A stretch of DNA of 32,412 bases, from positions 1 through 32,412 of the forward strand of contig CANJCM010000056.1 in assembly GCA_947472765.1 (NCBI GenBank). The letters are read 5' to 3'. Source of the stretch: Opitutia bacterium (GTDB lineage: Bacteria; Verrucomicrobiota; Verrucomicrobiia; Opitutales; Opitutaceae). The position numbers and the translations under genes are program-made. The notes beneath the pieces are model-generated. The model was not told the origin of the DNA. It made no database searches and saw only the letters and a program-made list of their open reading frames with translations. Positions within the stretch are counted from its first letter, which is position 1, and each line of letters starts with the position of its first letter. Of the stretch, positions 7,877 to 28,561 are shown piece by piece.

Positions 7877-8635
7877 TCAGCCTCGCCCGATGTAGGGCAT
7901 CTTGGTCGCCATCACCATCAGGCTCGGAACATTCACTTCGAGGGGCAGCGAGGCCATGTAGACCACGGCGTCGGTCACGTGCTTCAACTGCATCGTCGCT
8001 TCCGGCGCGATTGTGCCGTTCGCCTGCAGCACGCCTTTGCTCATGCGGCCACCCATCGCGGTGTGGGCATTCCCAATATCGATTTGTCCGCAGGCGATGT
8101 CGAAGGCCCGGCCCTCGAGTGCCGTGGATTTCGTCAACCCCGAGATCGCATGCTTGGCCGCCGTGTAGGCGACGCCGTGCGGCCGGGGCACGTGCGCGGA
8201 AACCGAACCGTTGTTGATGATCCGTCCTCCACGCGGAGTCTGACTTTTCATGATCCGCACCGCCTCCTGCGTGCAGAGGAAACTGCCGTTGAGGATTGTC
8301 TCGACGACCTCGCTCCAGCGATCGAACGCGAGCTCCTCGAGCGGTCCCGGCGGCACGTTCATGCCCGCGTTGTTGAACAGGACGTCGACCCGGCCAAACG
8401 TCTCGCGCGTCCGGGCGAAGAGCGCCTGGACCGAGGACGGCTGGCGCACGTCGGTCTGACATGCCAGGACGCGATCCGATCCGGCTCCGGACTGGCGGAC
8501 GGACTCCTCCAGCGCGTCGAGCCGTCGGCCCGCGAGGACGACCTTGAAGCCGGCCGCGAGCAGGCCCTTGGCAGCTTCCCGACCGATGCCGGAGCCGGCA
8601 CCGGTCACGACGGCAACTTTAGCGAAGGTTTCCAT
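7877..8635 (-). CDS. Short-chain dehydrogenase/reductase (SDR) family oxidoreductase
   Basis: A 252-aa classical SDR of normal length with a Rossmann fold, likely an NAD(P)H-linked alcohol or carbonyl oxidoreductase of unknown substrate. The cofactor motif TGAGSGIG is at residues 11-18, NNAG at 88-91, and the catalytic triad is Ser144 (NNGSVS), Tyr157 and Lys161 (YTAAK). The ARG-Arg after beta-2 (AGRRLD) weakly suggests NADP. The C-terminus is somewhat atypical ([17 protein letters not shown]). It has no signal peptide. It lies 60 bp beyond the end of the PQQ dehydrogenase gene on the same strand, so it may be the third gene of that transcript. Confidence 0.92.
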
Positions 8636-8695: not shown

Positions 8696-10327
8696 CTACT
8701 TCCGCACCGCGTAGGTGAAGAGCGCGCTGCCGGCGGAGACAGAAACATACTGCCGGCCGTCGACCGCAAAGGTCATTGGTCCGGACGCAATCGGTCCGCC
8801 GACGTTCGCCTTCCACAGGAGGGCGCCGGTCCGCGCATCGAGCGCGAAGAAATAGCCATCGCGGCCGCCGCTGAAGAGGACGTCGGATGCCGTGGTCAGG
8901 ATGCCGCCATCCGTCACATCACTCATCTTGAACTCCCACTTCCGCTCGCCGGTCTTGGGATCGACGGCCCGGACGGCTCCATAGCCTTCCTCTTCCTTCC
9001 GGTTGTTCACCTGCGCCGCGCGCAGGGACGGCACCGTCGAACGCGGCATGCCACCGGTGAAGGATTTCCCTTCCTCGTATTTGACGGGCGTCTTGATGAA
9101 GACGGTCGAGTAGTTCGCCCAGGTGGGAATGTAGAAGAGGCCCGTCCGCGGACTGTAAGAAGGCGAGTACCAGTTGGTGCCGCCCTGCACGCCCGGGTAC
9201 ACCAGAACACCATCGCGGGTCGGAGCCGTGCCGGCGATTTTAACCGGACGGCCGGTCTCATCGATGCCGCTCGCCCAGGTCACCTCGACGAACGGTTTAC
9301 CCAGGAGGAACTGGCCGTTCGTGCGATCGAGGACATAGAAGAATCCGTTCCGGTTCGCGAACATCATGACCTTCCGCATGCGGCCCTTCCACTCCATGTC
9401 GGCGAGCACCGGCACCTGCGTGGAATCATAGTCGAAGTCGTCGTGCGGTGTGAACTGGTAGTGCCACTTCAGCTTTCCCGTGTCGGCGTCGAGCGCCACC
9501 ACGCTGTCACTGTAGAGATTGTCGCCCAGGCGGACATCGCCGTTCCAGTCCGGCCCGGGATTGCCGATCCCCCAATAGGTCAGGTTCGTTTCCGGATCGT
9601 AGGATCCGGTCGTCCAGATGGAGGCACCGCCATGCTTCCAGGCGTCGCTGTCCGCCGGCCAGGTTTCGTGGCCGGGTTCGCCCGGACCGGGAATGGTGTA
9701 GAAACGCCAGGCCTCCTTGCCGGTCTTCGCGTCGTAGGCCGCGATGAAGCCGCGGATACCGTACTCACCGCCGGCCGTGCCGACGACCACCTTGTCCTTG
9801 ATTACGAGGGGCGAAACCGTGAGGGCGTAGCCGGCCTCGGGACTGGCCACGGGAATATTCCAGATCAGGCCGCCGTTCTTGGTATCGATCGCAATGAGAT
9901 GTGCGTCGATCGTGGCCATGTACAACGTGTCGCCGAGAATCGCGACGCCGCGATTGACGCGTCCGCAGCACGGACGGGCCGCCGGCGACGGACGGTATTG
10001 ATAAATCCAGAACACGCGCCCGGTCACGGCATCGATGGCGACGATGTCGTTCGGGGCCTGGACCGTGTACATGATGCCGTCGACGACGAGCGGCGTGGCC
10101 TCGAACTTCTCGAGAGAACGCGCCTGGAACACCCACTGAAGTTCCAGGTTCTTCGCGTTCTCGGGCGTGATGGCGGAGAGCGGGCTGTGCCGCTGGCCAT
10201 TGTAATCACCGGAGTAGGTCAGCCAATTCTGCGGCTCCTGCCGGGCGCCGAGCAGCCGCTCGGACGTGACCTCCGCCTGCACGGCGAGGGCACTGAGGAC
10301 GAAAAGGAAAAGGGCGCGGGTGATCAT
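8696..10327 (-). CDS. PQQ-dependent alcohol dehydrogenase (methanol/ethanol family), lanthanide-type signature
   Basis: A 543-aa periplasmic quinoprotein with a signal peptide (about residues 1-18, ending VQA). It should oxidise primary alcohols and pass electrons to the cytochrome c encoded just upstream. Propeller repeats of the type VVALDADTGKLKWHYQ recur through the protein. The adjacent cysteines Cys120-Cys121 match the vicinal disulfide ring next to PQQ in this family. The catalytic-Asp region reads PHDDFDYDST, with Asp299 followed by Tyr300 and Asp301. An Asp two residues after the catalytic Asp is the recognised mark of lanthanide-using (XoxF/PedH-type) enzymes; calcium enzymes have Ala or Ser there. 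The start codon overlaps the cytochrome stop (ATGA). There is no fused cytochrome domain. Confidence 0.93.
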   Translation of the reverse strand: MITRALFLFVLSALAVQAEVTSERLLGARQEPQNWLTYSGDYNGQRHSPLSAITPENAKNLELQWVFQARSLEKFEATPLVVDGIMYTVQAPNDIVAIDAVTGRVFWIYQYRPSPAARPCCGRVNRGVAILGDTLYMATIDAHLIAIDTKNGGLIWNIPVASPEAGYALTVSPLVIKDKVVVGTAGGEYGIRGFIAAYDAKTGKEAWRFYTIPGPGEPGHETWPADSDAWKHGGASIWTTGSYDPETNLTYWGIGNPGPDWNGDVRLGDNLYSDSVVALDADTGKLKWHYQFTPHDDFDYDSTQVPVLADMEWKGRMRKVMMFANRNGFFYVLDRTNGQFLLGKPFVEVTWASGIDETGRPVKIAGTAPTRDGVLVYPGVQGGTNWYSPSYSPRTGLFYIPTWANYSTVFIKTPVKYEEGKSFTGGMPRSTVPSLRAAQVNNRKEEEGYGAVRAVDPKTGERKWEFKMSDVTDGGILTTASDVLFSGGRDGYFFALDARTGALLWKANVGGPIASGPMTFAVDGRQYVSVSAGSALFTYAVRK

Positions 10328-11094
10328 GGCAGGTCGAGGCCTTTGAGGTTGGAAAGATAGCTGACCACGTCGGCCAGTTCCTGGGCGTTGAATTTATCGC
10401 GATAGGCCGGCATCGGCGACTTGGCGACGTAGCCCTGCTCGCGGAGGTCGGATTTCTGGAGGTACCGCAGGCGGTCCTTGGAATCGAGGAGTTGCACGCT
10501 GAACGCGTCCTGGTTGAGGAGCGTGCCGATGATCTCGGTGCCATCGGTGGCCACGGCGCGAAAGGCGCGATTGCCCGCCAGCACCTCGGCGTCCGGATCG
10601 AGCATGGCCCGCTCCAACTCCGTGCCGCGCCGCATCGCGCCGATTTCCGTCAGGTCAGGACCGCTGCGGGAGCCGGTGCCCTTCACGCGGTGGCAGGTGA
10701 AGCATTCGCCCTTGCCCGCAAACAGCGCCTTGCCGCGAGTGGCATCGCCCGCGAGGGCGCCCGGACGTGCTTCATCGGCCGCCATCGAGCGGAGATACGC
10801 GACAATCGTCGTCGCGCGAAATTCATCAAAGTTGTTCGCCGGCATCGGCGTGCCCGGAATCCCGTTGCGGATGATGCGAACGAGATCGGTGTCCGAGTAG
10901 ACCTGGCGGAAACGGCCGCGGCCGAGGTCGATCGTCGGAATCGCGTCGCCGTTCGGCCCGTGGCAGTTCGTGCAATTGGTGCGGAACAGGCGGCCGCCAT
11001 CTTCCACGTCGGCCGGAGTGTAGCTGTGCTGGGCAAGTAGTGAGCCCAGGGCGAAGCCATGGGCCAGGACGAGAACGAATAATTTCCGCCACAT
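10324..11094 (-). CDS. Di-haem cytochrome c, partner of the PQQ dehydrogenase
   Basis: A 256-aa exported protein with a signal peptide (residues 1 to about 21, ending LLAQ) and two haem c sites: CTNCH at 41-45 and CFTCH at 131-135. The N-terminal domain has a probable axial Met in GTPMPANNFDE. The C-terminal domain, with GPDLTEIG, a DG-GTLL pattern and a closing MPAYRDKFNAQELADVVSYL, resembles the putative haem-binding domain (TIGR02603 type) common in Planctomycetes and Verrucomicrobia. The frame extends upstream to 11355, but the ATG at 11094 is chosen because it sits directly before the signal peptide. Overlap with the dehydrogenase gene supports a role as its electron acceptor. Confidence 0.92.
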   Translation of the reverse strand: MWRKLFVLVLAHGFALGSLLAQHSYTPADVEDGGRLFRTNCTNCHGPNGDAIPTIDLGRGRFRQVYSDTDLVRIIRNGIPGTPMPANNFDEFRATTIVAYLRSMAADEARPGALAGDATRGKALFAGKGECFTCHRVKGTGSRSGPDLTEIGAMRRGTELERAMLDPDAEVLAGNRAFRAVATDGTEIIGTLLNQDAFSVQLLDSKDRLRYLQKSDLREQGYVAKSPMPAYRDKFNAQELADVVSYLSNLKGLDLP

Positions 11095-11445: not shown

Positions 11446-11904
11446 ATGAACCCTCTTCCTAGTGCTGCTCCCATTCTTTTGATCGGTCTCATGTTCATTC
11501 TGGCCGGTTGTGCCCCGAAAAACACCGCTCCGACCTTCGACGCTTCGTCCGTGCCCACGAAGGCGAGTCGCCGGGTGACGCTCAAAGAGGTTGAACCGAT
11601 CTTTTCCACGAAATGCGCCGCGTGCCATAATCCGATGGGGATGGATGAGGGCGTCGCGGTCGGCGGACTCGTCCTCGTGCACGGCAGCGCGGCGGCGAAT
11701 CTCGTCAACGCCAAGAGCACCGAGAGCAAATTGCTCCGCGTCCATCCGGGTGACCTCGCGAAGAGTTACATCTATCACAAGCTCAACGGCACCTTCGCCG
11801 CGGTCGGTGGCACCGGGTTGAAAATGCCCCTGGGCGGCACGCTGCCGCCGGAAGAAATCTCGTTGATCAACGACTGGATCCTCAGCGGCGCGCCGCTCGA
11901 GTGA
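11446..11904 (+). CDS. Mono-haem c-type cytochrome lipoprotein
   Basis: A 152-aa protein. The ATG at 11446 starts a lipoprotein signal (hydrophobic residues 8-20, lipobox LAGC with Cys22), so an upstream GTG at 11407 is not used. One haem c site, CAACH, is at residues 57-61 in the context VEPIFSTKCAACHNP, followed by GGLVLVHG. This is the pattern of planctomycete-type cytochrome domains (PF07635-like). The protein should be anchored to a membrane and carry electrons. Its stop codon overlaps the GTG of the following flavoprotein gene by four bases, implying coupled synthesis and probably a shared redox function. Confidence 0.88.
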   Translation: MNPLPSAAPILLIGLMFILAGCAPKNTAPTFDASSVPTKASRRVTLKEVEPIFSTKCAACHNPMGMDEGVAVGGLVLVHGSAAANLVNAKSTESKLLRVHPGDLAKSYIYHKLNGTFAAVGGTGLKMPLGGTLPPEEISLINDWILSGAPLE

Positions 11905-13139
11905 TCGCCCAGCAATTTCCTCGGCCTCCATTGCCTAACGCCAAACCAACCGTGGATCATACGTCTCCCGCCTCCGCTCCCCCGCTCACTCCCGACTACG
12001 TCAAGGCCATCAACATCGGCGGCCTGACCCATGCGGGCTTCTCCGGCTTCCTGTATCCCGCGGTCCAGCGTCCGCTCGCGCAGTTCTTCCCCTTCTTCAC
12101 CGAGAAAAGGCAGACGTGGGTCAAGCCGCAGATCAGCCGCGACCACATCCAGTGCGTCACCGTGGGTCTGCGGCCGCACCGGGCCTCCGGGTTCGTCGTC
12201 CGCTCCGAGCCGCTCGGCATGAAGACCCTGATTCACAACTACGGCCACGGTGGCTCCGGCTGGTCGCTCTGCTGGGGCACGGCGCAACTCGTGGCCGAGG
12301 AACTCAAGAAGACGACCGCCACCAAGGTCGCCGTCATCGGTTCCGGAATCAACGGACTCGCCACCGCGCGACTGCTGCAGCGCTACGGCTACGAGGTCGT
12401 GATCTACACGAAGGACATTCCGCCGAACGTCATCTCGAACCGCGCCTCCGCCGGCTGGTCGCCGACCGCAACGCTGTGCGACGAGGGCAAGTACACCCCC
12501 GAGTTCAAGAAGCTGCTCACGACGACGGCCCGCATTTCCCACCGTTTCTGGCAGGACTTCGTCGGCATCGAGCGCTACGGCGTCGAATATCGCTTCAACT
12601 ACGCCGGCGACGATCTGCCGTTCGGCGCGCTGTCACCTGACGACATCGGCAGCGACATCATGGACCTCAACGGCGAAGTCATCGACGTCGCCGAGGCGGA
12701 CTCTCCCTTCAAATTCGCCCATATCCACAAGACCTGGACGCTCCGCTTCCAGGTGCCGGTCTTCATGCAGGCGATGCAGGACGACTTCGGGATCGCGGGC
12801 GGCAAGGTCGTGATCAAGGAATTCGGCAAGCCCGAGGATGTGGATGCGCTGCCCGAGACAGTGGTCATCAACTGCATGGGCCTCGGCTCCAAGGGCGTCT
12901 TCGCGGATCCCGAGTTGATGCCGATCCGCGGCCAGCTCACGCACCTCGTGCCGCAGGCTGACCTCAAGTACTCTTTCAGCTGGCGGACCAAGCTGGTGAA
13001 TTTCAACCCGCGCCACGACGCCCTGACCTGCGGCGGCAGCACGCTGCCGAATATCTGGAGCATGGAGCCCGACAAAACCGAGGTCGATCGCGTCATCGAT
13101 GGCCTCACGGAAATGGTCAACACCCGGTTCGCGTCGTAA
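11901..13139 (+). CDS. FAD-dependent oxidoreductase, circularly permuted D-amino-acid-oxidase-like (paralog 1)
   Basis: A 412-aa flavoprotein starting with GTG. The order of blocks is unusual. GLRPHR (89-94) and IHNYGHGGSGWSLCWGTA (111-128) match the segment that ends D-amino-acid oxidases, including the substrate-carboxylate Arg of the GFRP motif, yet here they come first. The FAD-binding AVIGSGINGLATARLL (about 144-159) follows, then WSPTATLCD, matching the early WQPYLSD region of DAAO. The protein closes with VINCMGLGSKGVFADPEL (322-339), RGQL and CGGSTLP, where normal DAAO would continue into GFRP. No signal peptide or twin arginine is seen in the 85-residue N-terminal extension. A typical oxidase would release peroxide, but the cytochrome neighbour suggests a dehydrogenase. 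The substrate is unknown. Confidence 0.85.
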   Translation: MIAQQFPRPPLPNAKPTVDHTSPASAPPLTPDYVKAINIGGLTHAGFSGFLYPAVQRPLAQFFPFFTEKRQTWVKPQISRDHIQCVTVGLRPHRASGFVVRSEPLGMKTLIHNYGHGGSGWSLCWGTAQLVAEELKKTTATKVAVIGSGINGLATARLLQRYGYEVVIYTKDIPPNVISNRASAGWSPTATLCDEGKYTPEFKKLLTTTARISHRFWQDFVGIERYGVEYRFNYAGDDLPFGALSPDDIGSDIMDLNGEVIDVAEADSPFKFAHIHKTWTLRFQVPVFMQAMQDDFGIAGGKVVIKEFGKPEDVDALPETVVINCMGLGSKGVFADPELMPIRGQLTHLVPQADLKYSFSWRTKLVNFNPRHDALTCGGSTLPNIWSMEPDKTEVDRVIDGLTEMVNTRFAS

Positions 13140-13157: not shown

Positions 13158-14377
13158 ATGGAAACCTTGAAACAGACTCCGGCGCCGCAGGTTCAGCCGG
13201 TCCAAAGCGGGAATACCCGCCGCGGCTTCCTCAAAGCAGCCTCGGCCGCCGCCGTCGGCGCCGGGCTCATCGCCTCGGGCGGACTGATTGCCCAATACGT
13301 GGAGAGCATGGAGCGCAAGCGCGCCTCCCGGAAACTCGACATCGTGTTGCCCCGCGTCTCGATGAACCGGCACATCCGTTCCACCGTCGGCCTGCGCCCG
13401 CACCGGCCGATCGGCTTCAAGCTCGAGAAGGAGATGCTCGGCAACAAAATCCTCGTGCACAACTGGGTCACGGCGGCAGCGGCTGGTCCCTCTGCTTTGG
13501 CACGGGCGAACTCGCGATCCGCATGGCGGAAGAAGCGGGCGGCGCGGACGACCACGCCGTGCTCGGCTCCGGCATCGTCGGCCTGGCCACCGCCCGGCTC
13601 CTGCAGCGCCGCGGCAAGAACGTCACCATTTATACCAAGGAGCTGCCCCCGCGCCTGACCTCGAACTACGCGGCCGCGCTGTGGACGCCCACCGCGACGC
13701 TGTGCGACCCGACGAAGATCACGCCGGAGTTCAAGCAGGTCTTCGAGCAGGCGGCCCGGATTTCCTTCCGGTATTGGAACGACTTCATCGGCCACCACCC
13801 GACCTACGGCGTGCACTACGTCGAAGGCCTTCAGCTCCGCGATCTGGCCAACCCGACGCCCCCGCGTGTCGTGCCACCCGACTTCTACGGCAACGTGATC
13901 GAGGATCTGCACCCGCAGCCGATCGAGCTCATGCCCGACCAGCATCCCTTCGAGGGCTACGGTGCCCGGCTCACGCTCGCGATGCGCTTCGAGGCCCACA
14001 CGTTCCTGTTCCGCACGCTGAATGATTTCTACGAGGCCGGCGGGAAGATCGTGATCAAGGACTTCAAACGTCCCGAGGACATCGACGCGCTCAAGGAGAA
14101 GGCCGTTATCGCCTGCATCGGCTTGGGAGCGAAGGAAGTGTTCAAGGACGAGCACCTCAATCCCATCCGCGGACAGCTCAACATTCTCGCCCCACAGGCG
14201 GACCTGCGTTACAGCGTCGGCCTCAGCGGCGCCTCGGCCGCTCCGCGTTGGGACGGCATCGCGGTCGGCAACTCGGCCCTCTACGGCATCTGGGACACCG
14301 AGCCCGACATGAAACTCGCGAAGGAGATGATCGACAACGCCGCCGAAACTTTCTCGAAGCTGCAGAAGTTCGTGTAG
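13158..14377 (+). pseudogene. Permuted DAAO-like FAD oxidoreductase (paralog 2), Tat signal, single frameshift
   Basis: The coding sequence is broken by one frameshift: frame one runs from the ATG at 13158 and the rest continues in another frame to the stop at 14377. The break is in aactgggtcacgg (GGG at 13465-13467). One extra G restores LVHNWGHGGSGWSLCFGTG and a protein of about 406 aa, close to paralog 1. The block order is again permuted: VGLRPHR and HNWGHGGSGW first, then VLGSGIVGLATARLLQRRG, LWTPTATLCD, and at the end VIACIGLGAKEVFKDEHL and RGQL. Unlike paralog 1 it has a Tat signal (NTRRGFLKAASAAAVGAG), so it should be exported folded with FAD. It follows paralog 1 after 18 bp. A base-calling error is as likely as a real pseudogene, because both halves remain well conserved. 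Confidence 0.82.
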
Positions 14378-15683: not shown

Positions 15684-16202
15684 ATGGGATCGCTTCCTCC
15701 GCTTCCGCCCGAAATATATTCCGACCAGATGACGCCTGCGCCCGGCCCATCCTTCCGCTTCCACCGCCTGCTGCCCGGCATCCTGCTGGGCCTTGGCCTC
15801 GCCGCCACCGGCACCGTTTCGCTCGTCCTCGCAGCGGAGCCTCCTCCTTCGCAGCGCTCCGTGCTCGACGGCGTATTCTCGAGTGCGCAGATCAGCCGCG
15901 GCAAGAAAGGTTACGAGTCCCTCTGCGCCCGCTGCCACGGCGATGCCCTCGGCGGCGGCGAGGATTCACCGGCGCTGGTCGAGGCGGATTTCCTCAACAA
16001 CTGGTACGGCAAGACCATCGGTGCGCTGGTCGAATACACGCGGGAAGAGATGCCCTCGGACGGACCCGGCGATCTGACCCGCAAGGAGAGCACCGACATC
16101 ACCGCGTTCGTTCTCAGCTCGAACGATTTTCCCACCGGCTCCGCTGAGCTGGCCCCCGAATTGAAGGTTTTGAATCAGATTTTAATCACCCCTCGCAAAT
16201 GA
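15684..16202 (+). CDS. Mono-haem cytochrome c, partner of the second PQQ dehydrogenase
   Basis: A 172-aa protein from the ATG at 15684, which has a good ribosome-binding site (aaggaag, 15671-15677). A later ATG at 15729 would give 157 aa with the signal helix nearer the N-terminus. The hydrophobic stretch LLPGILLGLGLAATGTVSLVLA (about 29-50) is a signal peptide or anchor. One haem c site, CARCH, lies at 81-85 with GYESL before it and GDALGGGEDSPAL after it, as in class I cytochromes that accompany quinoproteins; the axial Met is probably in EEMPSD. The stop overlaps the start of the PQQ dehydrogenase (ATGA), so it is the likely electron acceptor. Confidence 0.88.
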   Translation: MGSLPPLPPEIYSDQMTPAPGPSFRFHRLLPGILLGLGLAATGTVSLVLAAEPPPSQRSVLDGVFSSAQISRGKKGYESLCARCHGDALGGGEDSPALVEADFLNNWYGKTIGALVEYTREEMPSDGPGDLTRKESTDITAFVLSSNDFPTGSAELAPELKVLNQILITPRK

Positions 16203-18259
16203 GTCACCCCAGCCTCCGCTTCCTGCTTTGCCTGCTGTTGCTTCCCGTCTCGGGACTTTTCGCCCAACAGGGCGCCCAGAAAGGCGAGTGGCGCTTCTAC
16301 GGCGGCGACGCCGGCAACACGAAGTACTCGTCGCTCGACCAGATCAATGCGGACAACGTCGGCGAACTGAAAGTCGCCTGGCGTTGGAAGTCCGAGAACT
16401 TCGGCCCGCGTGCCGACTACCTCTGGGAAGTCACCCCGTTGATGATCGACGGCGTGCTCTATTTCACCGCCGGCTCCCGCCGCAATGTCGTCGCCGTGGA
16501 TCCCACGACCGGCGAGACGCTCTGGATGTACCGGATCGACGAGGGCGAACGCGGTGATCGCGCCGTCCGCACGCAAAATCGCGGCCTCGCCTACTGGACC
16601 GACGGCAAGGACGACAAGCGGATCATCCTGATCACGCCCGGATTTCAGCTCATCGCGCTCAACGCGAAGGACGGCCGCCCGGTTTCGAGCTTCGGCAAGA
16701 ACGGTGTCGTCGAACTGACCGACGGGCTCGACCGCGATGTCGTCCCAGCCGGCGTGATCGGTTCGAGCTCTCCCGCCGTCGTGGTCCGTGACACCGTTGT
16801 AGTCGGCGCGGCGCTGCTGCCCGGCACGGCACCGTCCTCGAAGACCAACGTCCCCGGCTACATCCGCGGCTTCGACGTCCGCACGGGCAAGAAGGTCTGG
16901 ACCTTCCGCACCGTGCCGCATCCCGGCGAGGAAGGAAACGAGACGTGGGAGAAGGACTCCTGGAAGTACACTGGCAACACCGGCGCGTGGGCGCCACTCG
17001 CGGGCGATGACGAACTCGGCTACGTCTACATTCCCGTCGAGGCCCCCACCGGCGACTTCTACGGCGGGCATCGTCCCGGCAACAATCTGTTCTCCGGCAG
17101 CCTAGTCTGCCTCGACGCCAAGACGGGCAGGAAGGTCTGGCACTTCCAGATCATCCACCACGACATCTGGGACTACGAACCCTCGTCGCCGCCGGTGCTG
17201 ATGGACCTCACGGTCGACGGCAAAAAAATCAAGGCCGTCGCGCTCGTGATGAAGATGGGGTACACGTTCACCTTCAATCGAGTGACAGGCGAGCCCGTCT
17301 GGCCGATTCCGGAAGTACCGTTCCCCGCGTCCGACGTCCCGGGCGAATGGACCTCCCCGACCCAGCCGATCCCATCCAAGCCGGCGCCGTTTGACCGCAT
17401 CGGAATCACGCCCGACATCCTGATCGACTTCACGCCGGAGCTGAAGGCCGAGGCCCTGAAGATCCTCGAGCAGTACAAGTACGGCCCGCAGCTCTACATC
17501 CCGCCGATCGTGCGCGGGACGGATGGCAAGCTCGCCACCCTGCTCCTGCCGCATCACACCGGCGGTGCGAACTGGCCCGGCGGCGCGTTCGACCCCGAGA
17601 CGAATCTGTTCTATATCGCCTCGCTGACGAATCCGGATCCGATGGCGCTCTCGGCTCCCGATCCGCGTCGCTCCGACATGGCCTATGTCGGTGGTGGCGG
17701 TGGCGCCGCCGCCGCGGCCCGCGGCAAGGCCGGTCCGGCCGCCGGTGCGGCCAAGGGCGCTCCCGCTCCCGGTGCCGCGAAGGGCGCGCCCGCACCCGGC
17801 GCAGGCGGCGAAGGAGCGGTCCGGGGCAACATCGGGCCGCGAGGCCTCCCGTTGATCAAGCCGCCGTGGGGCCGGATCACCGCGATCGACATGAATCGCG
17901 GCGAACACGCCTGGATGGTGCCGAACGGCGCCGTGCCGGATGCCGTAAAAAATCACCCCGCGCTCAATGGCATCGACATCGGCAACACCGGCCGGCCTGA
18001 ACGCGCGCCGCTCATGGTGACGAAGACCCTGCTCTTCGCGGCCGACGGCGCCGGCATGTTTAACTCGGGCCCCGGCGGCGGCGGCAACAAGTTCCGCGCC
18101 CTCGACAAGAAGACCGGCGCGACGATTCACGAATTAACGCTCCCCGCGAACGCCACCGGCATTCCCATGACCTACATGGTCAAGGACCGTCAGTACGTCA
18201 TCGTGGCCGTCGGTGCGCGCGGTTACCCTGCGGAGTTGGTGGCCTTGGCGCTGCCGTAA
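16199..18259 (+). CDS. PQQ-dependent dehydrogenase, glucose-dehydrogenase-like (soluble, periplasmic)
   Basis: A 686-aa quinoprotein with a signal peptide (about 1-22, ending LFAQ). The beta-propeller starts with the usual WRFYGGDAGNTKYSSLDQI and VGELKVAWRW. The segment HHDIWDYEPSSPPVL (Asp325 as the expected catalytic Asp), the HRPGNNLFSGSLVCLDAKTG block and the HHTGGANWPGGAFDPETN block resemble membrane-type glucose/polyol dehydrogenases, but the five N-terminal membrane helices of Gcd are absent. Unlike the 8696-10327 enzyme, no vicinal Cys pair and no DYD motif are seen; the residue two after the Asp is Glu. A low-complexity Gly/Ala/Pro insert at about residues 497-542 includes a duplicated AAKGAPAPG unit. 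The substrate is unknown: a sugar or alcohol. A strong terminator follows. Confidence 0.92.
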   Translation: MSHPSLRFLLCLLLLPVSGLFAQQGAQKGEWRFYGGDAGNTKYSSLDQINADNVGELKVAWRWKSENFGPRADYLWEVTPLMIDGVLYFTAGSRRNVVAVDPTTGETLWMYRIDEGERGDRAVRTQNRGLAYWTDGKDDKRIILITPGFQLIALNAKDGRPVSSFGKNGVVELTDGLDRDVVPAGVIGSSSPAVVVRDTVVVGAALLPGTAPSSKTNVPGYIRGFDVRTGKKVWTFRTVPHPGEEGNETWEKDSWKYTGNTGAWAPLAGDDELGYVYIPVEAPTGDFYGGHRPGNNLFSGSLVCLDAKTGRKVWHFQIIHHDIWDYEPSSPPVLMDLTVDGKKIKAVALVMKMGYTFTFNRVTGEPVWPIPEVPFPASDVPGEWTSPTQPIPSKPAPFDRIGITPDILIDFTPELKAEALKILEQYKYGPQLYIPPIVRGTDGKLATLLLPHHTGGANWPGGAFDPETNLFYIASLTNPDPMALSAPDPRRSDMAYVGGGGGAAAAARGKAGPAAGAAKGAPAPGAAKGAPAPGAGGEGAVRGNIGPRGLPLIKPPWGRITAIDMNRGEHAWMVPNGAVPDAVKNHPALNGIDIGNTGRPERAPLMVTKTLLFAADGAGMFNSGPGGGGNKFRALDKKTGATIHELTLPANATGIPMTYMVKDRQYVIVAVGARGYPAELVALALP

Positions 18260-18524: not shown

Positions 18525-18566
18525 CCCCTCTACGAGAGGGGTGGCGCGAAGCGCCGGGGTGTGTCG
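18525..18566. repeat. Double-hairpin repeat, family G
   Basis: cccctctacgagaggggtgg followed by cgcgaagcgccggggtgtgt. Two adjacent hairpins (cccctc/gaggggt and ggcgc/gcgcc). A near-identical copy lies at 29568-29608. Confidence 0.85.
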
Positions 18567-18767
18567 CCATCCGCCGTCCGACGTCTGCCGTCTGCCCTCC
18601 GACCCTCCGCTAGGAGAGTGCCACTCACTCACACTCGCAGCCACGAAGTGGCCGATTGGTTCGTGGCTTCATGGCTTCAGGCTCAAAGCAATCCTCACGT
18701 TCCTCGATCCGACACTCGCCAATTCGCCCCGCTTGGCCCAGCTTCCGCGGAACCCACTGTGATTTCC

Positions 18768-20285
18768 ATGCGCTCGAAACTCCTCCCCTGGTTACCTGCT
18801 CTGCTCGGGCTTTTCCTCGCCACCGTCCCACTCATGGTTCGCGCCGCCGGCGCGAACCAGCCGAACATCATCCTGCTGCTCGGCGATGATCACGGCTGGG
18901 ACGAAACCGCCTACAACGGGCATCCCTACCTGAAGACACCCGTGCTCGATCAGATGGCGAAGACCGGGCTCCGGTTGAATCGCTTCTACTCGGGCGGCTC
19001 CTCGTGCTCTCCGACGCGCGCGACGATCATGACCGGCCGCCATCACCTCCGGTCCGGGGTGTACACGCCCGGCTGGTCCACGCGCCCCGAGGAAATCGGA
19101 CTCGCCTCAATCATGCGCCAGGCCGGCTACGCCACCGGCCACTTCGGCAAGTGGCATCTCGGCGCGGTCAAGGCCGGCTCGCCCCTGAATCCCGGCGCGC
19201 TCGGCTACGACACCTGGCTTGGTCACGACAATTTCTTCGAGCTGAATCCCACCTTCTCGCGCAACGGTGGCCCACCCGAAAAATTTCAGGGCGAGAGCTC
19301 CGAAATCCTCGTCGCCGAAGCCATTCGGTTCATCGCCCAGGCGAAGCGCGAGGGAAAGCCCTTCTTCATCACGATCTGGTACGGGTCTCCCCACGAGCCC
19401 TATAGCGCCCTGCCGAAGGATCTCGCGGTCTACGACAATCTCCCCGCCGACTTCGGCAACAAGCAGGTGGCCCTGACCTCGAACGAGACCGGCAAGGTCA
19501 TCCGTCGTCAGCAGCGCGACGTCTTGCGCGAGCGTTTTGCCGAGATCACCGCCATGGATCGCTCGATCGGCCAGCTCCGCGACTACCTGAGCCAGCAGCA
19601 AGTGCGGGACAACACGCTCCTCTGGTACTCCGGTGACAACGGCACCCCCGAGGAAGCCGTTGCCACGGTTCCCTTCCGCGGCTGGAAGGCGGACGTCTAT
19701 GAAGGCGGCATCCGCGTGCCGGCCGTGCTCGAATGGCCCGCGCGTATCCCACGGCCGGTGACGAGCGACGTGAACACGGTGACGACCGACATGTTCAACA
19801 CCCTCTGCGAAATTGCCGGCCAGCCGGTCCCCGCCCGCCCGCTCGACGGCATCAGTCTGCTCCCGCTGTTCGACGGCAAGATGAAGAGCCGCCCGCAGCC
19901 GATCGCATTTTGGAATGGCGACCTGCTGGCGAGGCAGAAAGGCGAACCGTACCTCGATCCGGAACTGCAGCGGGGCACGACCCCGGTCGTGAAACTCGCC
20001 CCGGGCGGATCCGGACTCTTTACGCGGGACTTTCTCAATAATCGCCATCCGGAGATTAAGCCCGCCGATTTCAACGGCGCCCGCGCCCTGCTCGACAACC
20101 AGTACAAACTCGTCGTCGACGGCGAGGACAAGCCCTCGAAGGAACTCTTCGACGTCCGCGCCGACCCCGCCGAGAAGAAGAACATCATCGCCGATCATCC
20201 CGAAGTCGCCGCCCGGATGGAGCAGCAGCTCCGCGCGTGGCAGGAGTCCGTCCTGAAGAGCCTCACGGGCGCAGATTACAAGTAA
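18768..20285 (+). CDS. Sulfatase (formylglycine-dependent arylsulfatase family)
   Basis: A 505-aa exported sulfatase that would hydrolyse sulfate esters, probably on polysaccharides. A signal peptide covers residues 1 to about 26 (LLPWLPALLGLFLATVPL...VRAA). The metal-binding start is NIILLLGDDHGWDE (Asp40, Asp41). The modification motif is CSPTRATIMTGR with Cys80, the residue converted to formylglycine (C-x-P-x-R), so an FGE-type maturase is needed and is not encoded in the window. GHFGKWHLG supplies the conserved Lys/His pair, and WYSGDNGTPEE the later metal ligands. The ATG at 18768 is chosen because it directly precedes the signal peptide; a GTG lies nine bases upstream. The substrate class cannot be assigned by eye. 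Confidence 0.94.
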   Translation: MRSKLLPWLPALLGLFLATVPLMVRAAGANQPNIILLLGDDHGWDETAYNGHPYLKTPVLDQMAKTGLRLNRFYSGGSSCSPTRATIMTGRHHLRSGVYTPGWSTRPEEIGLASIMRQAGYATGHFGKWHLGAVKAGSPLNPGALGYDTWLGHDNFFELNPTFSRNGGPPEKFQGESSEILVAEAIRFIAQAKREGKPFFITIWYGSPHEPYSALPKDLAVYDNLPADFGNKQVALTSNETGKVIRRQQRDVLRERFAEITAMDRSIGQLRDYLSQQQVRDNTLLWYSGDNGTPEEAVATVPFRGWKADVYEGGIRVPAVLEWPARIPRPVTSDVNTVTTDMFNTLCEIAGQPVPARPLDGISLLPLFDGKMKSRPQPIAFWNGDLLARQKGEPYLDPELQRGTTPVVKLAPGGSGLFTRDFLNNRHPEIKPADFNGARALLDNQYKLVVDGEDKPSKELFDVRADPAEKKNIIADHPEVAARMEQQLRAWQESVLKSLTGADYK

Positions 20286-20287
20286 GC

Positions 20288-20363
20288 TGTAGGGCCGGCG
20301 CTCGTCGCCGGGCCTGATCGGCCATCGGAAAGACGAGGCCCGCCGGCGAGCGGCGGCCCTACA
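20288..20363. repeat. Twin-hairpin intergenic repeat, family E
   Basis: The outer ends tgtagggccggcgctcgtcg ... cgagcggcggccctaca are inverted repeats with a few mismatches; 76 bp, three bases after the sulfatase stop codon. Confidence 0.82.
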
Positions 20364-20382
20364 AGGGCAATCCGAAATCCAT

Positions 20383-20412
20383 CGTAGGGGCGCGCCTCGT
20401 GCGCGCCCGCGC
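20383..20412. repeat. Solo arm of repeat family D
   Basis: cgtaggggcgcgcctcgtgc followed by gcgcccgc. It matches the right arm of the 7767-7828 element almost exactly; no second arm is seen nearby. Confidence 0.75.
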
Positions 20413-20441
20413 CTGCTTATCGGCCTTCGAGCGAAGCTCGT

Positions 20442-20469
20442 GAATTCTTCGCGTCGCTCAGAATGACAG
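20442..20469. repeat. Solo arm of repeat family F
   Basis: gaattcttcgcgtcgctcag followed by aatgacag. It matches the right arm of the 32108-32184 element. Confidence 0.75.
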
Positions 20470-20559
20470 AGATTGGTTCCTGATTTCCTGGCTTCAGGCT
20501 CAACCGGCCTGGGCAATGTTCGATCTTCTCGTCGGCGCTCTGCGGGCTACGCTGCCCGC

Positions 20560-21867
20560 ATGGACTCCCCCGCCGACAACACCCTCACGCGGCGTCAGGC
20601 GCTCGGCTTGATTGGCGTGCTCGCGCTGCCTTGGGAAAACGTGCTCGCGCAGACCGCGCCCTCGGGCGGCGCCGCCGCGGTCCCGGCCCCGGCGCCTTTC
20701 GTTCCACTCGATCCGAATCTGCCGCCGGACCTCGCCAACTTCGACGGGCTGTTCCAACAGATCGCCCGCGACCACGGACCGCGGCTTTCGTTTCTCGAAG
20801 ATCGCTTCCGCTCGCTCGACGAATGGAAGCAGGTCGCGCGTCCCGCGTTTCGCGACTTGCTCGGCTACCAACCGAAGCCACTCCCGCTCGCCGCGGAGTT
20901 GATCAACCGCGAGGATCGCGACGGCTACGTGCTCGAGACGGTGCACATTCACGCGACCGCGGCCTACCACATCCCGGCCCGGGTCCTTGTGCCGAAGGGA
21001 CGCAGCGGCCGGTTGCCCGCAGTCCTCGCATTGCATTGTCACAGCGGCCGGTACACCTGGGGCCATGAGAAGGTTATCTCGAGTCCGACCGACTCCGCGA
21101 CGCTGACCGAATTCCGCACCAGCCGCGATGGCCGGCCGTGGGCCGAGTCGCTTGTGAAGCGCGGCTATATCGTGATTTCGATCGACGCCTTCTATTTCGG
21201 CGAACGCCGATTGCGCGTGGAGGATCTGGTCCCGTCGCGGGTTTTTCCGGAGGTGAAGGACGCGTTCGAAGCCTCCCGGCAGGCGAAGCCGGGTTCACCG
21301 GAGTGGATCGCCGCAACGAATCGCGTCTGCAGTTTCTACGAGCACCACACCGCGAAAACGATCCTCGCCACCGGCGCGACCTGGCAGGGCATCCATGCGT
21401 GGGACGAAATGCGCACCGTCGACTATCTGCTCAGCCGGCCCGACGTGGACGGCGAACGTATCGGCTGCATCGGGCTTTCCGGCGGAGGCTTCCGCACGGA
21501 CCTGCTCATCGCCTCGGATTCACGGATAAAGGCGGCGTGTGTCACGGGCTGGATGACGGCATTCCAGCACCAGCTTCGCCATCATGTCCGCCACACTTGG
21601 ATGGCGTGGCTGCCGGGCCTGTATCGCGTGCTCGATTTGTCCGACGCCGCGGGTCTCCACGCGCCCGGCGCGCTGCTCGTCCAGCAATGCCGCCGCGACC
21701 TCCTCTACCCCATGTCAGGAATGCAGGCCGCGGTCGACAAACTGACCCGCATCTATGCGAAAGCCGGCATCCCCGAACGCTTCCGCGGCTCGTTCCACGA
21801 TGTGCCGCATTCGTTTAATCCGACGATGCAGGACGAGGCGTTCGACTGGATGGATCGCTGGCTCTAG
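20560..21867 (+). CDS. Exported alpha/beta hydrolase (acetyl-xylan-esterase / dienelactone-hydrolase-like)
   Basis: A 435-aa protein with a Tat-type signal (TRRQALGLIGVLALPW, residues 10-25). The alpha/beta-hydrolase fold shows LPAVLALHCHSG (oxyanion region, about 152-163), the nucleophile elbow IGLSGGG with Ser307, and a C-terminal FHDVPHSFN (His413 or His417 as catalytic His). Such long, exported hydrolases in Verrucomicrobiota often act as carbohydrate esterases; that role is inferred, also from the sulfatase just upstream. The ATG at 20560 is preferred over an earlier start at 20473, because the extra residues come from repeat sequence and precede the Tat motif. Confidence 0.85.
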   Translation: MDSPADNTLTRRQALGLIGVLALPWENVLAQTAPSGGAAAVPAPAPFVPLDPNLPPDLANFDGLFQQIARDHGPRLSFLEDRFRSLDEWKQVARPAFRDLLGYQPKPLPLAAELINREDRDGYVLETVHIHATAAYHIPARVLVPKGRSGRLPAVLALHCHSGRYTWGHEKVISSPTDSATLTEFRTSRDGRPWAESLVKRGYIVISIDAFYFGERRLRVEDLVPSRVFPEVKDAFEASRQAKPGSPEWIAATNRVCSFYEHHTAKTILATGATWQGIHAWDEMRTVDYLLSRPDVDGERIGCIGLSGGGFRTDLLIASDSRIKAACVTGWMTAFQHQLRHHVRHTWMAWLPGLYRVLDLSDAAGLHAPGALLVQQCRRDLLYPMSGMQAAVDKLTRIYAKAGIPERFRGSFHDVPHSFNPTMQDEAFDWMDRWL

Positions 21868-21892
21868 AGGCCCGGCGTTTCACGCCGGGCCT
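21868..21892 (+). terminator. Hairpin after the esterase gene, possible terminator (no T-run)
   Basis: A perfect 10-bp stem aggcccggcg / cgccgggcct with a 5-base loop begins right after the stop codon. It lacks a T-tract, so it may act as an mRNA 3' end protector or a weak terminator. Confidence 0.5.
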
Positions 21893-21926
21893 GAGGAGAA
21901 ACCGGGGACGACGAACTGGATTCCTT

Positions 21927-21996
21927 CGGGCACGCCTCGTGCGCGTCCGATTCGTTTCCGTCGGATTTCAATCGGGCGTGGACGAGCCACGCCCCA
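21927..21996. repeat. Twin-arm intergenic repeat, family D (diverged)
   Basis: The arms cgggcacgcctcgtgcgcgt (21927) and tcgggcgtggacgagccacg (21972) are divergent relatives of the family D arms. Confidence 0.65.
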
Positions 21997-22010
21997 TGGG
22001 GCGCTTCGGT

Positions 22011-22087
22011 GTAGCCCTGCCCGTGAGGGCAGGGACCACCGCACTAATTCCCTGCCAGCCTCTCCCGCCGCTCACGCGGCGGGCCAC
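22011..22087. repeat. Twin-hairpin intergenic repeat, family C
   Basis: The first arm contains ccctgcccgtgagggcaggg; the second, cccgccgctcacgcggcggg then ccac. The arms are those of 2317-2374 in the opposite order, 77 bp end to end. Confidence 0.82.
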
Positions 22088-22103
22088 TCTCACTTCGCCA
22101 CGA

Positions 22104-22838
22104 TCACTTCCCAGCCGGCAGCTTGACGAAGTCCGCGGGCGGCAGCACCTCGTGCGTGAAACGGGCCCACGCCACGGCGCCCTTGAAGTAATTCACCTTG
22201 TTCATGCGCACGCCGACCGCCGCACGGCCGGGCAACTGCGGCTTGTAGGTCGTGACCTCGGCCTGACCCTGCAGTTCGCCATTCACGTAACTGCTAAACG
22301 TCTTTCCGTCGAAAACCTGCGCGACGTGGTACCACTTTCCGACCGGGTAGACCTTGTTCTTGAACATGAGGGCCTTGTTGTAGCCCGGTCCGTTCATGAA
22401 CGCGTCGAGGTACCACTGGTCGCCCACGACACGAATCTCGAAGAGGAAGCGGGCATTCGGTTCCTGCGTCGTCTTGGTCGGGCTCGTGGAAAGTCCGGTC
22501 TTTGGATCGATCTCCGCAAGGTGGAACCAGCGCTGCTGGTTCTCGCCGCCGTCGGGACGGAAGATCGCCTCAAAGGTGAACTTCTCGGCGCCCGCGAGCG
22601 GATGCTGCTCGATCAGGAGCATGTCACCCACGCCGTCGAACTCGACCGCCTTGCCAACGGGGCTGCTCACGACCTTCGGGTGTCCTTCGACGGTGGTCTT
22701 TACACCGCCGATGTTATCGAGGCGGTCGAAATTCCAGACAATCTGCCGTGACGGCGCGGCCGCCGCGACAAGGAAGCAGGCGGCGCCAACCGCGAATAGG
22801 GAGAGAGCAATGAGCTTATTACCGGTGAGATGATTCAT
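22104..22838 (-). CDS. LamG-like (concanavalin A-like) exported protein
   Basis: A 244-aa exported protein with a signal peptide (about 1-28; LIALSLFAVGAACFLVAAAA). The remainder fits a LamG/concanavalin A-like jelly roll used for binding carbohydrate or other surface ligands: GKAVEFDGVGDMLLIEQHP, FTFEAIFRPDGGENQQRWFHLAE, WYHVAQVFDGKTFSSYVNGELQGQ and a final KGAVAWARFTHEVLPPADFV. No catalytic residues are evident. The ATG at 22838 directly precedes the signal; an upstream in-frame start at 22892 would add an unsupported extension. It is transcribed divergently from the lactonase gene, and its 3' end abuts a repeat element. Confidence 0.85.
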   Translation of the reverse strand: MNHLTGNKLIALSLFAVGAACFLVAAAAPSRQIVWNFDRLDNIGGVKTTVEGHPKVVSSPVGKAVEFDGVGDMLLIEQHPLAGAEKFTFEAIFRPDGGENQQRWFHLAEIDPKTGLSTSPTKTTQEPNARFLFEIRVVGDQWYLDAFMNGPGYNKALMFKNKVYPVGKWYHVAQVFDGKTFSSYVNGELQGQAEVTTYKPQLPGRAAVGVRMNKVNYFKGAVAWARFTHEVLPPADFVKLPAGK

Positions 22839-22982
22839 GGGGACTTGATGGGGTGAAGCCGGAGCGTGGTGAATGCGGGCGGCGACGTCCACCGGGATTA
22901 TTTATACCCTCTCGTCGGCAGACCTTCGCAGAGACGGGAAATCCACGCTTGGTTCTCCTTCGACGAGTCGTCTAATAAACCC

Positions 22983-24104
22983 ATGCGCCCCTCCCGCCCC
23001 TTCCTTCTGATCGCTTCGATGTTGCTCTCCGCGGCCGCGCTGCGGGCCGAAGTCTACCAAACGTACTTCGGCACGACCGGCCGGAACACGAAGGGCATCT
23101 ATCGCGCCACGTTTGACACCACGACGGGCAAATTCGGCGTGCCCGAACTGGCGGCCGAGGTCGGCGCCCCCGGCTTCCTTGCGGTGCATCCGGACGGCAA
23201 GAAACTCTACGCGGCGGGACGGGTTGAGGGCGGCGACGGTGTCGCGGGCTATCGCATCGGCGCCAATGGCACCCTCGAGTTGATCAATACCTCACTCACT
23301 GGCGACGGCAGCGGCTCGCATATTGCCGTCCACCCGTCGGGAAAATTCATCGTGACGACCCAGTACGGCACCGGCTCAGTCGCAGTATTTCCACTCGATG
23401 CCGAGGGACGTGCCGGCAAGGCCACCCTGACGAAGCACGAGGGTGGCTCGAAAGTCGTGCGGCCCCGGCAGGACGTCCCGCATCCGCATAGTTGCTTCTT
23501 TTCCCCCGACGGGCGCTTCGCCCTCGTCTCCGATTTGGGCAAGGACGGCATCGTGGTCTATCGCGTCAACGAGCAGGTCCCCGCGCTCGAACCGCATGGC
23601 TTTATCGCGTCGGTACCCGGCGGCGGCGCCCGGCACATGAAATTCTCGCCCGACGGAAAGTTCATTCTCTCGCTGAACGAAATGACCCTTTCCGTAACGA
23701 CCTTCGCGTGGGACGCCGCGGCCGGCACTGCCAGGCTCTTGCACACCGTGCCGGCGTTGAGCGAAGAGGCAAAAGCCGGTGAGCCTGCCAACTCCGCCGC
23801 GGAAATCGTGGTCCATCCGAACGGCCGGTTCGTTTACTCGTCGAACCGCGGTCACGACACCGTTACCGTCTATTCCCGCGATCCGGCGACCGCCGCGCTC
23901 GGCGTGATTCAGGTCCAGCCGGTCCGTGGCGCACATCCGCGCAACATCAACCTCGCTCCGGGCGGCGCCTGGCTGCTCACCGCGGGTCAGGATTCCAGCA
24001 CGATCGCGGTGCATAAGGTGAACCAAGAGACCGGCCGGCTCACCTATCAGACCGCGAGTGTCATTAATGTGCCGATGCCGATCTGCATCGTCTTCGCGAA
24101 ATAG
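22983..24104 (+). CDS. Exported lactonase-family seven-bladed beta-propeller protein
   Basis: A 373-aa protein of the Pgl-type lactonase family (PF10282-like), whose cytoplasmic members hydrolyse 6-phosphogluconolactone. Here a signal peptide (FLLIASMLLSAAALRA, ending about residue 20) sends it out of the cytoplasm. Repeating blades are visible as AVHPDGKKLYAAG, AVHPSGKFIVTTQYGTGSVAVF, FSPDGRFALVSDLGKDGIVVY, FSPDGKFILSLNEMTLSV, VHPNGRFVYSSNRGHDTVTVY and LAPGGAWLLTAGQDSSTIAVH. PHPHSCFFSPDG corresponds to the central conserved segment. Export makes a sugar-lactone role, for example with products of PQQ dehydrogenases, conceivable but unproven. The ATG at 22983 is chosen because it precedes the signal. 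Confidence 0.88.
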   Translation: MRPSRPFLLIASMLLSAAALRAEVYQTYFGTTGRNTKGIYRATFDTTTGKFGVPELAAEVGAPGFLAVHPDGKKLYAAGRVEGGDGVAGYRIGANGTLELINTSLTGDGSGSHIAVHPSGKFIVTTQYGTGSVAVFPLDAEGRAGKATLTKHEGGSKVVRPRQDVPHPHSCFFSPDGRFALVSDLGKDGIVVYRVNEQVPALEPHGFIASVPGGGARHMKFSPDGKFILSLNEMTLSVTTFAWDAAAGTARLLHTVPALSEEAKAGEPANSAAEIVVHPNGRFVYSSNRGHDTVTVYSRDPATAALGVIQVQPVRGAHPRNINLAPGGAWLLTAGQDSSTIAVHKVNQETGRLTYQTASVINVPMPICIVFAK

Positions 24105-27167: not shown

Positions 27168-27208
27168 GCCTCCGCCCACTCCCCTTTTCGCCCCAACCCG
27201 CCTCCTCC

Positions 27209-28561
27209 ATGAAAGCATCCCCGCACTCCCCGACCGGCCAAGCGCCCTTCATCTCGACCCGGACGCCACTTTCGCGCCGCCACTTCCTCCGCGGTTCCGG
27301 CGTCGTCCTCTCGCTGCCGTTCCTTGATGCGATGCTCCCGAGCTTCGCCCGCGGTCAGCAAGCGTCTGCTTCGCCGCTCGCCCCCGGCGCCACCCCGCGA
27401 CGGCTGGTCGCGGTGGAGCACAACCTCGGGTTCGTCCCGAGGAACTTCTTCCCCACGACGGCCGGCCGCGACTACGCGCTCTCGCCCTATCTGGAATTGC
27501 TGAAGGGGCACCGGCGCAATTTCACCGTCATTAGCGGTTCGTCGCTCCCGAACGTCGTCGGCAGTCATCCGACCGAAGTGGCGTGGTTGACCGGCGCGCC
27601 GCATCCGGCGAGTGGCTCGTTCAAGAACACGATCTCGCTTGATCAGATGGTGGCGGCGCACCTCGGCACGCTCACGCGCTTCCCGTCGCTCACGCTTTCG
27701 ATCAACGGCAACACCGGCCTGTCATTCACCGGCGGCGGCGTTGCGATTCCGCCCGAGCAGAAGGCCGCGAACGTCTACAAGCAGCTCTTCGTCCAAGGTT
27801 CGCCCGAGGAGGTCGAGGCCCAGTTGCTGCGCCTCGAGACGGGCCGCAGCATTCTCGACACGGTCACCGACCAATCGAAGGACCTGAAGCGCAAGCTCAG
27901 CACCGAGGATCGCGAGCGCGTCGACCAGTTCTTCACCAGCGTGCGGTCCTTGGAGCGGAACCTCGAAGCCACGCAGGGCTGGGAGCGGAAGCCGAAGCCG
28001 GTCGTCACGGTTCCGACGCCCGTGGATCCCGCGAGCAACGGCCTGTTGATGGAAAAGGAGAAGGTGATGTTCGATATCATCCGGCTCGCGATCCAGACCG
28101 ACTCCACGCGCGCCATTACGCTCTTCGTCAGCGGCACCGGCACGCCCGTGATCGAGAGCAAACTCGGCCTCACGATCACCGAGCAGTACCACGGTCTCTC
28201 CCACCACGGCAAACAGCCGGAGAAGCTGACGCAGCTCCAGGCGATCGACATGCAGCATTTCAAAAACCTGAACACCTTCCTCGACGGCCTGAATGAATCA
28301 AAGGAAGGCAGTGAGTCGCTGCTCGATCGCACGCAGGTGCTGTTCGGCTCGAATTTCCACGATGCCAACTCGCATCTGACGACCAACCTCCCGGTGTTGC
28401 TCGCCGGCGGCGGCTACAAGCACGGCCAGCATCTGGTGTTCGACAGCATGAACAATTACCCGCTGTCGAACCTGCACCTCACGATGCTCCATCGGATGGG
28501 AATCACGGAGAAGAGTTTCTCGTCCTCGACCGGCACGTTCCGCGGTCTCGAGATGACCTGA
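27209..28561 (+). CDS. DUF1552-family exported protein
   Basis: A 450-aa protein of the DUF1552 family, regularly encoded next to DUF1592 cytochromes. It carries a Tat motif LSRRHFLRGSGVVLSLPFLD (Arg23, Arg24), so it is probably exported folded. Conserved-looking blocks include RLVAVEHNLGFVPRNFFP, SLDQMVAAHLG, DTVTDQSKDLKRKLSTEDR, GLSHHGKQPEKLTQLQAID and GSNFHDANSHLTTNLPVLLAGG. The His- and Asp-bearing segments near the C-terminus resemble metal-hydrolase-like folds such as DUF1501/sulfatase-type proteins. The function is not established. The context implies one complex or pathway with the preceding gene. Confidence 0.93.
   Translation: MKASPHSPTGQAPFISTRTPLSRRHFLRGSGVVLSLPFLDAMLPSFARGQQASASPLAPGATPRRLVAVEHNLGFVPRNFFPTTAGRDYALSPYLELLKGHRRNFTVISGSSLPNVVGSHPTEVAWLTGAPHPASGSFKNTISLDQMVAAHLGTLTRFPSLTLSINGNTGLSFTGGGVAIPPEQKAANVYKQLFVQGSPEEVEAQLLRLETGRSILDTVTDQSKDLKRKLSTEDRERVDQFFTSVRSLERNLEATQGWERKPKPVVTVPTPVDPASNGLLMEKEKVMFDIIRLAIQTDSTRAITLFVSGTGTPVIESKLGLTITEQYHGLSHHGKQPEKLTQLQAIDMQHFKNLNTFLDGLNESKEGSESLLDRTQVLFGSNFHDANSHLTTNLPVLLAGGGYKHGQHLVFDSMNNYPLSNLHLTMLHRMGITEKSFSSSTGTFRGLEMT

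Follow-up and report, generated by a model that had tools for sequence, protein, structure and literature searches.

The window, a stretch of 32,412 nucleotides that covers positions 1 to 32,412 of contig CANJCM010000056.1 of an Opitutia bacterium (Opitutaceae; assembly GCA_947472765.1), encodes on its minus strand a PQQ dehydrogenase of the methanol/ethanol family (8696..10327; TIGR03075, PF01011). The protein, referred to here as the query dehydrogenase, has 543 residues and an ATG start, and its first residues, MITRALFLFVLSALAVQA (10274..10327, minus strand), read as a probable Sec signal peptide. Directly upstream on the same strand lies a di-heme cytochrome c gene (10324..11094; PF00034/PF13442; TIGR02603 at 80.6 bits, cut-off 68.15) that overlaps the start of the dehydrogenase by 4 bases and encodes two c-type heme motifs. 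The length of 256 residues given for this cytochrome is counted from an internal ATG, and its open frame extends to 11355. The next gene downstream of the query dehydrogenase encodes a short-chain dehydrogenase (7877..8635, minus strand; PF00106).

The plus strand of the window carries several further genes. A DAO-type FAD oxidoreductase (11901-13139) is followed by an open reading frame that is similar to it by eye (13523-14377). A second, glucose-dehydrogenase-like quinoprotein (16199-18259), whose best profile is TIGR03074 at 358.8 bits, under the cut-off, has a small cytochrome c gene directly upstream (15684-16202). Farther along, a sulfatase, an abhydrolase-type protein and a seven-bladed lactonase lie on one strand at 18561-24104, and 24282-28561 holds a planctomycete-type cytochrome/DUF1592-DUF1585 protein and, after it, a DUF1552 (HXXSHH) protein.

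Conservation of the cytochrome neighbour

The cytochrome is the neighbour that recurs at other loci. Sequence of 900 bases or more ahead of the dehydrogenase was available for 43 relatives and fell short in two more; among the 43, a CxxCH-encoding frame lies upstream in 35, is fused to the dehydrogenase in one and is missing in seven. A search with the window cytochrome gives matches at 39 of 47 relative loci; two of these 47, L127 and L128, probably duplicate L089 and L046 and enter no other count. Two quinoproteins of the host genome, L021 and L023, carry N-terminal di-heme cytochrome fusions, and the window cytochrome aligns with these N-terminal parts at 31% (E 5e-32) and 29% identity (E 1e-24), respectively. 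The conserved adjacency and the homologues fused to paralogs suggest that the cytochrome takes electrons from the query dehydrogenase, of which it is the probable acceptor.

The remaining neighbours behave differently from the cytochrome. The short-chain dehydrogenase lies beside none of the 47 relative loci, so its membership in the same unit is doubtful. A wider conserved operon was considered and rejected, as the short-chain dehydrogenase, the DAO-type oxidoreductase, an HpcH-like protein and a small PSCyt-like protein were each found beside 0 of 47 loci at E <= 1e-10, some of these loci containing little flanking sequence. The glucose-dehydrogenase-like neighbour matches all 47 loci; among the 12 matches listed, 11 coincide with the dehydrogenase homologue, so that the two cannot be told apart there, and the twelfth, at L065, is at another place in its locus. 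The preliminary description had placed the enzyme in a verrucomicrobial, carbohydrate-degrading context. The verrucomicrobial setting is borne out by the closest relatives, which are Opitutae/Opitutaceae proteins at 78-79% identity, and by orthologs at 78% in genomes of the same genus. The case for a carbohydrate-degrading setting is weak: the window does contain a sulfatase and a lactonase, but four of the five neighbours compared, the cytochrome aside, do not travel with the dehydrogenase.

Active-site residues and family placement

The residues of the query dehydrogenase were compared in a MAFFT alignment with MxaF (1lrw), XoxF (4mae), PedH (6zcw) and ADH-IIB (1kv9), together with two XoxF5 proteins and one cytochrome-fused protein encoded on plasmids, 21 host paralogs and 75 relatives. 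Residue counts refer to 42 of the 45 near relatives (L046-L090), L084, L086 and L090 having been dropped as broken or shorter than 350 residues; nearly all of the near relatives are labelled as acidobacterial groups or Opitutae, and one as Acidimicrobiia.

The stretch HDDFDYD (residues 295-301; 9425..9445, minus strand) spans the alignment columns of MxaF D303 and A305. Translation places Asp299 at 9431-9433, Tyr300 at 9428-9430 and Asp301 at 9425-9427, exactly where the preliminary description had read them. Asp299 aligns with MxaF D303, the catalytic residue, in a column that is Asp in 42/42 near relatives, 33/33 farther relatives and 21/21 paralogs; a different catalytic Asp, which would have undone the assignment, was looked for in the alignment and did not occur. 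By this alignment, HDDFDYD is an active-site position and not a chance string. Asp301, two residues on (the +2 position), falls in the column occupied by Ala305 in MxaF, Asp in XoxF and PedH, and Thr in ADH-IIB. The rule given in the preliminary description for this position, Asp in lanthanide enzymes and Ala or Ser in calcium enzymes, needs widening, since calcium types may also have Thr, as in 1kv9, 1kb0 and 1yiq, which we take to be Ca-using enzymes. The +2 residue is Asp in all 42 near relatives and in all 16 alcohol-type paralogs of the host, whereas the 33 farther relatives divide into 20 with Asp, 12 with Thr and one with Asn. The signature is thus ordinary, expected and common in its clade.

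The rest of the metal and PQQ site is also retained. Glu188, in the pair Gly187-Glu188 (9764..9769, minus strand), and Asn256 (9560..9562, minus strand) occupy the columns of MxaF Glu177 and Asn261, which we take to be metal ligands, and Arg326 (9350..9352, minus strand) and Trp238 (9614..9616, minus strand) occupy those of Arg331 and Trp243, presumably the active-site Arg and the PQQ-stacking Trp of MxaF. The adjacent cysteines Cys120-Cys121 (9965..9970, minus strand) align with MxaF C103-C104 and, by likeness to the family, would form a disulfide at the PQQ site. Arg126 and Asn385 are kept as well, and C120, C121, R126, W238, N385 and R326 are each conserved in 40 to 42 of the 42 near relatives. 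Before Glu188 the query dehydrogenase has the Gly of XoxF and PedH, which 39 of the 42 near relatives also have; MxaF and 1kv9 have Ala there. At the column of MxaF Trp476 the query dehydrogenase has Asp473 (Asp in 23/42 near relatives), which probably makes its pocket more polar. Among the alcohol-type paralogs, the adjacent-cysteine pair has been lost in 7 of 16 (L010, L016 and L021-L025), with both Asp residues retained.

Profile and structure comparisons agree on the kind of protein. The query dehydrogenase scores 571.1 bits on TIGR03075 (cut-off 480.05), and its top sequence matches in the PDB are the type II quinohemoprotein 1kv9, with the best score, followed by PedH 6zcv, 1kb0, 1yiq and PedH 6zcw. 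An AlphaFold2 model built from 24 sequences has a mean pLDDT of 86.3 and a pTM of 0.88, and is weaker around residues 291-300 (mean pLDDT 75). When this model was compared by Foldseek and VIA-align 2, PedH 6zcw ranked first (Z 48.2, rmsd 2.1, 510 residues), less than 1 Z unit ahead of XoxF 6dam (47.5) and 1kv9 (47.4), a lead so small that the predicted structure gives the kind of fold and no choice between metals.

The position of the query dehydrogenase was further examined in a maximum-likelihood tree of 87 rows, from which the motif columns had been removed. It is a quick tree with several long branches and no inferred root; 13 of the 75 relatives were left aside, 11 to thin the set and two because of their length, and one of the five glucose-dehydrogenase-like paralogs is represented. 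Support is 100 for the grouping of the query dehydrogenase with two Opitutae/Opitutaceae proteins, and the starred clade around them numbers 41 proteins, mostly acidobacterial. It lies apart from another starred clade (100), which unites three XoxF rows with one MxaF row. PedH, represented by a single row on a long branch of this quick tree, joins the type II quinohemoproteins at 87, with the query dehydrogenase elsewhere.

These comparisons make the query dehydrogenase, as judged from its sequence, a further member of the PQQ methanol/ethanol dehydrogenase family, and narrower labels were considered in turn. It shares with XoxF (4mae, 6dam, 6oc5) a ligand set that includes the +2 Asp, and has a gap at Trp540, which XoxF and MxaF have in common. 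Membership in XoxF was rejected on its position outside the XoxF/MxaF clade of the quick tree and on the failure to find XoxJ: at E <= 0.001, TIGR03871 was not found in the host genome or in the genomes G004 and G010 of the same genus, while both XoxF plasmids used as controls were positive. Type II quinohemoprotein alcohol dehydrogenases carry a C-terminal heme domain. The query dehydrogenase shares with 1kv9, 1kb0 and 1yiq a D-Y/F-x-S/A-T-Q stretch; its open frame contains no CxxCH and it has Asp in place of Thr at the +2 position, which rules out this identity too. TIGR04528, named 'acido-empty-quinoprotein group A', matches strongly over the full length at 548.2 bits, yet TIGR03075 scores higher, and assignment to TIGR04528 was rejected at its curated cut-off of 650.

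The top structural match is to PedH/ExaF, as exemplified by Pseudomonas putida PedH (6zcw), with which the query dehydrogenase has in common the metal ligands, the +2 Asp, the GGE motif and the Cys-Cys pair. Identity over the structural alignment is 39%. The two proteins stand apart on the quick tree (supports 85-87), and they differ in the Asp at the Trp476 position and in the di-heme cytochrome gene that the query gene adjoins.

Predicted metal preference of the query dehydrogenase

The reading we consider likely, if well short of certain, is that the query dehydrogenase is a secreted PQQ alcohol dehydrogenase that most probably uses a lanthanide, passes electrons to the upstream di-heme cytochrome and draws its PQQ from the environment. 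The enzyme would act in the periplasm on an alcohol, or on an aldehyde or polyol, with an eight-bladed propeller holding PQQ and one metal ion. Asp299 would serve as the base, and Glu188, Asn256, Asp299 and Asp301 would hold the metal, in the cell most likely a light lanthanide. The di-heme cytochrome c would receive the electrons from PQQ.

Use of a lanthanide is a fair prediction because the metal- and PQQ-site residues are present and the top structural match is PedH. PedH, which has the Asp, is reported to be active only with lanthanides, whereas PedE, which has Ser, used Ca (PMC5487730), and a PedE-type enzyme that lacks the Asp kept 60-80% of its activity in 10 mM lanthanide (PMC10409515). 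The Asp is described as essential by Good et al. 2020, as cited in PMC11996626. In weathered granite and soil, XoxF3 systems, another lanthanide-type branch, are reported from Verrucomicrobia and Acidobacteria (PMC10875860).

The +2 Asp may, alternatively, be an old feature of the family that imposes no lanthanide, in which case the query dehydrogenase would be a Ca/Mg or metal-promiscuous enzyme in the manner of membrane glucose dehydrogenase. Escherichia coli Gcd, which we take to be a Ca/Mg enzyme, reads HHDLWDMD at the site, so the D-x-D arrangement is no proof of a lanthanide requirement. Among the five glucose-dehydrogenase-like paralogs of the host, four likewise have Asp at +2 and one has Glu, the latter being the neighbour in the window (L026; HHDIWDYE). 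Over all rows of the tree Asp is the commonest +2 state and at least five changes are needed, with gain and loss of the Asp indistinguishable because the root was not inferred. Set against this reading is the record of the alcohol branch, in which lanthanides are the metals of the characterised enzymes with the Asp (XoxF, PedH), and Ca is that of the enzymes with Ala, Ser or Thr; for enzymes other than PedH and PedE, the metals are general background or taken from PDB titles. The Gcd-like protein L026, moreover, scores best on TIGR03074, whereas the query dehydrogenase scores best on TIGR03075. In favour of the metal-promiscuous reading, Ca, Mg, Zn and Sr are listed as metals accepted by m-GDH, which is called promiscuous and also predicted to be facultatively lanthanide-dependent (PMC11996626). 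Weighing these points, we regard a Ca/Mg or promiscuous enzyme as unlikely. The earlier proposal that the enzyme may need a rare-earth metal thus survives as a prediction of lanthanide use, carried by the signature, the remainder of the metal and PQQ site and the match to PedH; the Gcd site weakens it as a statement of need.

PQQ supply and the quinoprotein repertoire of the host

In the host genome (95.9% complete, 157 contigs), 13 proteins pass the TIGR03075 cut-off and four more match at E <= 1e-100, which gives 17 alcohol-type quinoproteins (L009-L025). Such numbers occur in few of the 27 genomes of the genus that were searched: with up to 20 candidates scored per genome, three (the host, G004 and G010) have between 11 and 17 matches at E <= 1e-100, six show a single match and 18 show none.

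The host appears, from profile searches, to lack the genes to make PQQ. PqqC was not found in its genome, both control plasmids being positive, and the matches to PqqE (63.3 bits, cut-off 381.35) and PqqB (43.6 bits, cut-off 245) are weak. Across 57 genomes, the host included, PqqC was above cut-off in none and weakly matched in two. The survey was extended to 39 genomes, which by their record names cover all 45 near loci, six of these sharing an assembly already included, and to the genomes of 10 of the 33 farther loci. PqqC was above cut-off in five of the 39 near-relative genomes (G061, G068, G083, G085 and G088) and in six of the 10 farther ones; the other 34 near-relative genomes, whose completeness is unstated, have no PqqC above cut-off, seven of them showing weak matches. 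Seventeen quinoproteins in a genome without convincing PQQ synthesis are more unusual than the +2 signature.

Import was addressed with E. coli PqqU, minus its last ~12 residues, as the search query. Six matches were obtained in the host genome, of which the two full-length ones are L138 (25% identity) and L144 (23%). In these two and in three receptors from other genomes there is no aromatic residue at Y99 and no Arg at R365, and L138 alone of the five has Arg at R304; at 23-25% identity the alignment behind this check, which covers two of the six host matches, is unreliable. PqqU is reported in 22 phyla, PQQ biosynthesis is reported to be absent from the five PqqU-bearing Verrucomicrobia and import to be common in bacteria that lack the pathway; for Acidobacteria and Bacteroidota without PqqU, the suggested sources are PQQ made by the cell itself or soil PQQ that diffuses in (PMC12124388). 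The absence of PqqC, the weak PqqB and PqqE matches and the missing PqqU signature in the two best receptors together indicate that PQQ presumably comes from outside the cell. Diffusion or an as yet undescribed importer would be the simplest account.

With no convincing PQQ genes in the host, the query dehydrogenase could also be an empty quinoprotein that has kept the fold, binds no PQQ and either has another role or is idle. Besides the PqqC, PqqB, PqqE and PqqU results, the existence of the related TIGR04528 family, whose cut-off is passed by the host paralog L025 (732.6 bits), is in keeping with such a protein. The query dehydrogenase itself lies below that cut-off (548.2 against 650), and its six conserved PQQ-site residues have been kept where an unused site should drift. 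PqqC in five near-relative genomes and the reported frequency of PQQ import in bacteria without the pathway (PMC12124388) also speak against it, and we consider an empty protein quite improbable. Literature searches returned nothing on 'empty-quinoprotein', nor on rare earths combined with quinoprotein, Acidobacteria and PQQ biosynthesis.

The preferred reading, a PQQ-loaded enzyme with a lanthanide-type site, may be extended to the whole repertoire. Under this tentative and somewhat unlikely proposal, all 17 quinoproteins would be of the lanthanide type, with PQQ and lanthanide both scavenged, PQQ perhaps by an uptake route yet to be described. The system would be a trait of few species of the genus, held in common with soil Acidobacteria and perhaps acquired by gene transfer.

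The query dehydrogenase is a known kind of enzyme, and its lanthanide-type site and probable cytochrome partner are ordinary in its clade. The host emerges as a soil-type bacterium with a putative periplasmic alcohol-oxidising enzyme that has a rare-earth-type metal site. We know of no characterised member of the large Acidobacteria/Opitutaceae clade to which the protein belongs, and of no assay of any of its members. The apparent lack of PQQ synthesis makes these proteins well suited to testing how cofactors are shared in soil, and if the predicted lanthanide use is true, rare-earth enzymes would extend to this large clade.
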